IMG/VR virus record: IMGVR_UViG_3300048835_000978
Coordinates: 22,346 to 86,345 of that record
From: a virus
Reading direction: 5' to 3' (one strand)
Length of the DNA: 64,000 nt
The notes under the pieces were generated by a model. That model did not search any database, was not told where the DNA came from, and saw only the letters and a program-made list of their open reading frames with translations. Within the stretch, counting starts at the first letter, position 1. Every line of letters starts with the position of its first letter. Positions 62,646 through 64,000 of the stretch are shown in pieces. Position numbers and translations under genes: made by a program.

Positions 62646-62882
62646 CTAGCCTGTCGGCTCAGTCGGAACGACATCCGTATCGCTCGCCGGATTGACTTCC
62701 CTGTCGGCGGCATCCCTGTACTGCTGTGGAAGATGGTCCCTTACTTCCGATCGCCGGATGGGGATTTCCTTCGGGGCTTCGACGCCGATCTGAACTTGGG
62801 CGCCGTTGTAGCCAACGAAGAAAACCTTGATGTCGTCACCGATCTCAAGGGATTGTCCGGGTCGCCGGGAGAGAACTAAGAT
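62646..62882 (-). CDS. csrA: CsrA-like RNA-binding protein with AUC start
   Basis: 78 codons reading (M)LVLSRRPGQSLEIGDDIKV, then QVQIGVEAPKEIPIRRSEVR, which is CsrA to the residue in order, including Arg44. CsrA binds GGA motifs in mRNA, often at ribosome sites. No ATG, GTG or TTG lies in frame after the last upstream stop (a TGA near 62935). The codon at the right position is ATC at 62882-62880, and it is preceded by a near-perfect AAAGGAGGTG 6 nt away. It overlaps the 3' end of the AP2/HNH gene. A C-terminal tail of about 25 residues is acidic. Start codon is inferred. Confidence 0.75.
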   Translation of the reverse strand: MLVLSRRPGQSLEIGDDIKVFFVGYNGAQVQIGVEAPKEIPIRRSEVRDHLPQQYRDAADREVNPASDTDVVPTEPTG

Positions 62883-63484
62883 GGCACACCTCCTTTTGTG
62901 CTGAAATTCGTAAAAGCAAAATCTCCGAATACTTCAATCGCCGCATTGTCATACGCCATGGCGGCTTCTGTTTCGTCAGCGAAGTGACCAATGTGAATCG
63001 ACTTCCGGTCGACATGCAGTAAAACTCGCCACTTGTTGGCAGCCTTGTTCCAGTGGACCCCCTTGAACTGCGATGTCTTCGCGTTCTTCCGCTTCCTGGT
63101 ATTCCGCATTTGCTGCGTGCGGGTGGCCCATCGGCAATTACCCGGTTCGTAGTGGCCGTTGGTGTCGCGGCGATCCAGTTCAAGGCCGTCGGCATATCCA
63201 TTGGAAATTGCCCAATCCCGGAAGGTCTCAAAGCTCGTTTTCCATTCCTCGCAAACCGCGATTCCGCGTGCGCCGTAATACTCGTATGCGGGGCATGATC
63301 GAAGGTAGCATCGCGATTTCATGGATCGCCAAGCCAAGTACAGCCTCGACTTGCTTTGGCCGTGCGTTCTGGCGGGCGACTGAAACCCGGCTACGCGACA
63401 TGGCACAGAGCAGAATCGCCTCCGTTTGCTTGGCGGGTGGCAAAACGACCTTCCGCAAACAGGGCACGTCGCAGCAATAGGCAT
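62876..63484 (-). CDS. HNH homing endonuclease with AP2 domain and N-terminal zinc finger
   Basis: 202 residues. CPVCGRSFCHPPSKRRRFCS is a zinc-finger-like start, then an HNH-like part (GLELDRRDTNGHYEPGNCRW) and an AP2 domain (SQFKGVHWNKAANKWRVLLH ... AMAYDNAAIEVFGDFAFTNF). It is an invasive endonuclease like the one behind thyX. Its stop codon TAG overlaps the first CsrA codons, so the insertion may have removed the original csrA start. Confidence 0.75.
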   Translation of the reverse strand: MPIAATCPVCGRSFCHPPSKRRRFCSVPCRVAGFQSPARTHGQSKSRLYLAWRSMKSRCYLRSCPAYEYYGARGIAVCEEWKTSFETFRDWAISNGYADGLELDRRDTNGHYEPGNCRWATRTQQMRNTRKRKNAKTSQFKGVHWNKAANKWRVLLHVDRKSIHIGHFADETEAAMAYDNAAIEVFGDFAFTNFSTKGGVPS

Positions 63485-63729
63485 CCATGCACCTTGAATC
63501 CAAAACGCGACTTGCTCAAGAAAGTCGCGCAAAAGCTACCAACCGAGAGAGTGCCAACAAGGCAGCCGCCACCTTGGCGGTTCAAACCCTAGAAAACCGC
63601 TGCGGGTGGTTCCCTGGGGCCGGTAGCTTGATTAACAACTGACGCTGCACAGTGCGCCAGGTCGCCCGGAGAGCGGGCCTGAAGCACTAGGTTTTAGGGG
63701 TGCCGCTTAATGTCCGGCTGACAACCAAG
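63485..63729 (-). other. leader region with CTAG motif copies, no convincing gene
   Basis: Lies between the promoter at 63730-63758 and the HNH start codon. It holds a minus-strand AAACCTAGTG at about 63686-63695 and, in the opposite direction, AAACCCTAG at 63583-63591, plus small GC hairpins (GCCCGCTCTCCGGGC). I see no gene with a ribosome site here. Confidence 0.5.
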
Positions 63730-63758
63730 ACTCTAAACTAAAGTTTATTTCGTGTCAA
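63730..63758 (-). promoter_or_regulatory. sigma70-like promoter with repressor operator
   Basis: -35 TTGACA (63753-63758), 17-nt spacer, -10 TAGAGT (63730-63735). The palindrome TAAACTAAAGTTTA at 63734-63747 overlaps spacer and -10, so repressor binding would block it. The -35 overlaps the repressor stop codon. Confidence 0.7.
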
Positions 63759-64000
63759 GCGGTTCGCCTTGGATTTTTTTGACACGGAGAAAGTAGCTCG
63801 TCAATTTTGACAGCAAGCGCTTCGGCCACTCTAGCAAGGAACGCGGCCGAAGGTAACTTAATCCCGCGAACCATGAGCGAAATCCTCATTTCGCTCTCAC
63901 CAATCTTGCGAGCCAAGTCTGATTGGTTCATGCCGCGCAACAGCAGCAATCGCCGAACATTTTCGGCGATATACATTTTTGCTTCTTCGTCCGTGAGCAC
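63755..64000 (-). CDS. XRE-family repressor, possibly cut by window edge
   Basis: 81 residues. MNQSDLARKIGESEMRISLM followed by VRGIKLPSAAFLARVAEALA is a typical XRE/lambda-Cro helix-turn-helix. The frame starts with GTG at the last bases of the window; more could lie upstream. Its place directly before an operator-bearing early promoter makes it the likely phage repressor or Cro-like regulator. The C-terminus lacks any peptidase domain, so induction by RecA self-cleavage is not expected. Confidence 0.7.
   Translation of the reverse strand: MLTDEEAKMYIAENVRRLLLLRGMNQSDLARKIGESEMRISLMVRGIKLPSAAFLARVAEALAVKIDELLSPCQKNPRRTA

Follow-up and report, generated by a model that had tools for sequence, protein, structure and literature searches.

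A phage csrA gene that appears to start at AUC, overlapped by an AP2/HNH endonuclease gene

The window considered here, the whole 64,000-nucleotide stretch of DNA that was analyzed, is the final 64 kb of a virus record of 86,345 bases. It encodes a CsrA homolog overlapped at its start by a gene for an AP2/HNH endonuclease (Table 1). Phage-borne csrA genes have been reported previously (PMC7366521). The Pfam CsrA profile (PF02599) matches residues 2–49 of the predicted protein (5.9e-18) over profile positions 2–49 of 53, with a score (65 bits) that passes the gathering cut-off of 27. PHROG CsrA-like families are also matched, as are CsrA/RsmE chains in the PDB (3e-11). The invariant positions of a small CsrA alignment are kept, among them L4, G15, G27, G33, A36, P37, R44 and E46, and these include both RNA-binding residues, L4 and R44. 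The initial annotation of a full CsrA core with Arg44 is thus borne out by Pfam, the PDB and the alignment. The core, Arg44 and the similarity to solved CsrA/RsmE structures tie the protein to the CsrA/RsmA family, from which it differs in its apparent AUC start, whereas ATG, GTG or TTG is the first codon in the large majority of the viral csrA genes surveyed.

As the initial annotation described (without stating that the gene lies on the minus strand), codon 1 is ATC, preceded by a strong, well placed Shine-Dalgarno sequence, and no ATG, GTG or TTG is available in frame between the upstream TGA and this codon. This combination is that of a near-cognate start. A degenerate csrA pattern with ATH (ATT, ATC or ATA) as codon 1 matches the window once and has no match in 100 shuffles.

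The upstream gene belongs to an HNH family (PHROG 374, E 4.9e-56), and its AP2 domain is detected at E 6.7e-07 with 30 bits, under the Pfam cut-off of 33.3. Its end inside the csrA start region, also described initially, is confirmed: the ORF overlaps csrA by 7 nt, and its TAG is csrA nucleotides 5–7 (ATCTTAG). Near the contig end is an HTH repressor-like ORF (63755–64000, minus strand), judged from its sequence alone. A search of viral contigs found no close relatives of either the window csrA or the exonuclease encoded downstream, and the window DNA has no match among INPHARED phages.

Table 1. Positions of features at the csrA locus of the window.
Feature	Position	Strand	Details
csrA coding frame, 78 aa	62646..62882	minus	start ATC 62882-62880, stop TAG 62648-62646; 78 codons plus stop
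Proposed start codon ATC, at the methionine position of MLVLSR	62880..62882	minus	L350 has ATC at the matching junction
csrA-frame stretch, 17 codons without ATG, GTG or TTG	62883..62933	minus	upstream TGA (62936-62934) to ATC
Shine-Dalgarno sequence AAGGAGGTG	62887..62895	minus	9-nt match to the 16S 3' end; 6-nt spacer to ATC; within the endonuclease's last codons (..KGGVPS-stop)
Short hairpin GCACA[AAAGGAGG]TGTGC, Shine-Dalgarno GGA in loop	62884..62901	minus	resembles a CsrA-binding site, suggestive only
AP2/HNH endonuclease gene, longest ORF 218 aa, start uncertain	62876..63532	minus	stop TAG 62878-62876 in csrA codons 2-3

Comparison shows that this junction recurs, so that four phages carry it: the window and contigs L350, L094 and L085. 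The non-AUG codon is kept at the same place in these relatives, as ATC in L350 and as ATT in L094 and L085. Each of their endonucleases ends exactly at csrA nucleotide 7, with the csrA Shine-Dalgarno sequence held in its last codons. The endonucleases of L350 (a contig found via this protein, not via csrA) and L094 are 59% and 51% identical to that of the window, and among 45 relatives the four junction endonucleases group into a single clade (support 94), a clustering reached in 0 of 500 shuffles. The window csrA core shares 19–22 of 47 residues with those of the other three (21 of 47 with L350), and the window's downstream exonuclease is in none of their records. Over the 14 nt before the start, 11–12 are the same in the window and L350 or L085, whereas the csrA bodies are about half identical. 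L094 also carries an in-frame TTG at −12. The TAG on which the endonucleases end is present at csrA nucleotides 5–7 in 27 of 183 csrA genes with NTG starts, and in L199 (ATGCTAG).

L199 provides the one pair in which csrA can be compared with and without the endonuclease. Over 248 nt its csrA and the one in L085 are 86% identical. The start is ATG behind a weak leader (ACGGAAC) in L199, which lacks the endonuclease, and ATT behind GGAGGTG in L085, which carries it. Within csrA nucleotides 16–141, 111 of 126 positions are the same, whereas directly upstream of the start the two agree at just 4 of 14 bases. A terminator-like hairpin, CTGCGGAC...GTTCGCAGGTTTT, lies upstream in both, beyond the endonuclease in L085; this left-flank homology is a match made by eye, with no BLAST hit. 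The contrast indicates that, in this lineage, leader and start codon are both new where the endonuclease is present. The dN/dS for L085/L199 is 0.22, and for a second pair with different starts, L092 (ATT) and L182 (ATG), in which no endonuclease was detected, it is 0.06; the genes are short. Neither pair looks like pseudogenes, and the values indicate purifying selection. Strong terminator-like hairpins (CTGCGGAC...GTTCGCAGG, then a T run) occur close upstream of csrA in L199 and L431, about 26 nt from the L199 start. A tRNA-like T-arm sequence, ggttcgaatcc, lies about 200 nt upstream of csrA in L092/L347 and L182.

The csrA pattern with ATH as codon 1 was run over 2.9 million viral contigs and matched 16 stretches; csrA genes starting with ATT, ATC or ATA are present in about a dozen viral contigs besides the window. 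In a control scan for viral csrA whose codon 1 does not end in G, 35 stretches were recovered (20 non-ATH, 15 ATH). All 20 non-ATH stretches have an in-frame ATG or GTG no more than 7 codons away, so codon 1 there is merely an internal position. By comparison, 12 of the 15 ATH stretches have no canonical start that close. The exceptions are L093 and L096, ruled out as ATA starts by an ATG at −2, and L083, left out because of a TTG at −4. Viral csrA genes with NTG starts that fit the pattern number about 790, a rough figure from a sub-pattern (59 stretches; 9 of 120 sampled genes fit), and ATH starts thus make up, by rough estimate, 1.5% of pattern-matching viral csrA. A CsrA tree for counting origins gave 15 changes and was set aside because of its 61 columns and few supported forks.

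Endonuclease genes adjoin 3 of 12 ATH csrA genes versus 1 of 183 NTG genes when the window and L350 are left out (p=7e-4). Beside the ATT csrA of L082 is an HNH_3-type gene unlike that of the window. In L253, a relative of the L082 endonuclease ends 12 nt upstream of a csrA that starts with ATG, which indicates that more than one endonuclease family sits at csrA starts. AUU starts are also found where there is no endonuclease, in phages L084, L086, L089, L095 and L097.

Across 84,980 species genomes, the ATH pattern matched six stretches. Four are csrA, all in Leptospirillum-type metagenome-assembled genomes; the other two, L102 and L103, are not csrA. In the Leptospirillaceae, the family of iron-oxidizing bacteria to which one of these four genomes belongs, 20 csrA loci start with ATT (17), ATA (1) or ATG (2), and the AUU start seems to have arisen there independently of the phages. 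Of 295 Nitrospirota genomes sampled, 16 contain the pattern, and every one of these belongs to the Leptospirillaceae, with no match outside that family. At the one locus examined for its neighbors (L098), csrA is flanked by flgL-like and fliW-like genes, named from sequence. No endonuclease is involved in the Leptospirillaceae ATH genes; thus, a mobile gene is not the sole route to a non-AUG csrA. In most of the Leptospirillaceae loci (L130–L142) the csrA frame continues into FliW-like sequence, for about 230 codons, and this long frame is possibly a natural CsrA-FliW fusion.

Comparison also shows that the Shine-Dalgarno sites of the phage ATH genes are strong. The mean duplex energy is −11.6 kcal/mol for 13 ATH csrA genes versus −7.8 kcal/mol for 183 NTG genes (p=9e-6), the longest match is 7.1 versus 5.0 nt (p=1.7e-6), and the contrast holds minus the window (p=3e-5 for energy, 7e-6 for match length), all of these p-values ignoring kinship among the sequences. 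The motif GGAGGTGT is present in 4 of the 13 ATH genes versus 1 of the 183 NTG genes. Statistics for a CsrA-type hairpin at the Shine-Dalgarno site are weak and suggestive only (p=0.015 versus shuffles for phage ATH genes, 0.01 for the Leptospirillaceae, and 0.047 versus NTG genes). At the window locus the GGA is looped out as in CsrA-binding sites, and self-repression by CsrA is thus possible.

The odd codon could in principle be a sequencing or assembly error, the true base being G and the start ATG. The window is one metagenomic contig and a single base change gives ATG, but ATC recurs in this context in a different phage, L350, ATT is found in two further phages that carry this endonuclease, and ATT or ATA is conserved across a bacterial family. 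An error, which the initial annotation had raised as an alternative, is therefore very improbable. The annotation also considered a pseudogene. An insertion that destroyed the start would explain the lost AUG, and none of the relatives of the window gene is close enough to give a dN/dS value. A dying gene is nevertheless quite unlikely, given the full open frame and core, the strong Shine-Dalgarno sequence at the correct spacing, the retention of csrA in four phages, and the dN/dS of ATT-start relatives, which is not near 1. A −1 frameshift close to the endonuclease stop, yielding an endonuclease-CsrA fusion, is as hard to credit as a base error. The csrA gene does lie in the −1 frame, with a 7-nt overlap between the two frames, but direct reading found no X XXY YYZ slippery site from the Shine-Dalgarno sequence to the TAG, the spacing suits initiation, and this route is closed to ATY csrA genes that have no endonuclease.

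A more serious alternative, although still an unlikely one, is that AUY (AUC or AUU) is older than the endonuclease. There would have been a phage csrA lineage with GGAGGTGTCCC-AUY, selected for weak or IF3-controlled expression, upstream of which the endonuclease inserted later. L090 and L091 have this GGAGGTGTCCC-ATY junction with no endonuclease beside csrA, and no endonuclease remnant above noise was detected upstream of L090, L091 or L092, so the junction might predate insertion; their leaders may be either scars or the older state. The AUU starts of the Leptospirillaceae and of the five endonuclease-free phages named above also fit an older AUY, as does the difference between L092 and L182. 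Against it, L199, which lacks the endonuclease, combines ATG with a weak Shine-Dalgarno sequence, unlike L085; endonucleases are concentrated beside ATH rather than NTG genes, and the shared 14 nt end at the gene edge, with csrA bodies no closer than those of other phages.

The reading we prefer, at a probability of roughly three in four, is that the phage csrA is functional and is translated from AUC, that an inserted endonuclease gene replaced its initiation region, and that the weak AUY is rescued by a strong Shine-Dalgarno sequence. A free-standing AP2/HNH homing-endonuclease gene would have inserted directly upstream and replaced the original 5′ region of csrA. The new region would bring a near-perfect Shine-Dalgarno sequence within the endonuclease's last codons and turn AUG into AUY. 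Having no stop of its own, the endonuclease would terminate on the out-of-frame TAG supplied by csrA codons 2–3. Ribosomes would reach the AUC via the strong Shine-Dalgarno sequence, probably also by re-initiation after the overlapping stop, and with initiator tRNA reading AUC the protein would begin with methionine. Output is likely to be low and IF3-sensitive, as for infC, pcnB and sigR, and the Shine-Dalgarno hairpin may in addition let CsrA down-regulate its own mRNA. Very little initiation is expected at AUC codons, and expression of the window csrA could thus be negligible.

We infer initiation at AUC from sequence comparison. The initial proposal that it is a real start gains support from the ATC of L350 at the same junction and from purifying selection in close ATG relatives of ATT-start csrA. 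The proposal that insertion rewrote the start is supported as well, within limits: the L085/L199 pair favors it, but insertion is not the only route, as the Leptospirillaceae and several phages have AUU or AUA with no endonuclease. The suggested comparison with endonuclease-free phages likewise yielded the ATG and weak Shine-Dalgarno sequence of L199, but no endonuclease-free close relative of the window was found. Overall, an unusual start codon seems to be a feature of csrA that recurs and is selected for.

The genes infC and pcnB start at AUU behind extended Shine-Dalgarno sequences. Other regulators of this kind are Streptomyces sigR, which has a GUC start with AGGAGGTG and is repressed by IF3 (PMC5472188), and Staphylococcus cvfC1 (AUU) and ccpN (AUA), also with extended Shine-Dalgarno sequences (PMC13009471). 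The window gene is like these regulators in its non-AUG start and extended Shine-Dalgarno sequence (AGGAGGTG of sigR being like that of the window), and unlike them in having AUC as the codon, in being a csrA, and in that the change goes along with a mobile gene in one phage lineage. An ATG-to-ATT suppressor mutant of Vibrio fischeri csrA is presumed to have lowered CsrA without abolishing it (PMC4573307); it shares the ATT start, but was selected in the laboratory and is not a natural, conserved start. Our literature search, which covered few subscription papers, found no report of natural AUU, AUC or other non-AUG csrA starts. Free-standing homing endonucleases of the T4 type (mob, seg) are well studied; they lie between conserved genes and can disturb expression of a neighbor (PMC2988022). 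The window endonuclease gene is similarly set between conserved genes, but it is of the AP2/HNH type, it overlaps its neighbor's start codon, and its homing is putative.

It is conceivable, although we consider it doubtful, that the endonuclease recognizes the csrA initiation region and that the change from AUG to AUY protects the occupied allele from cleavage. If true, a regulator's start codon would at the same time serve a selfish gene as its immunity mark, and would be tolerated since csrA works at reduced, self-limiting expression.

Gene finders restricted to ATG, GTG and TTG will miss or truncate such genes in both phages and Leptospirillum-type bacteria. The set amounts to repeated natural experiments in near-cognate initiation, with csrA at AUG or AUY in close relatives, and it makes testable the idea that a homing endonuclease rewrote its neighbor's start codon.
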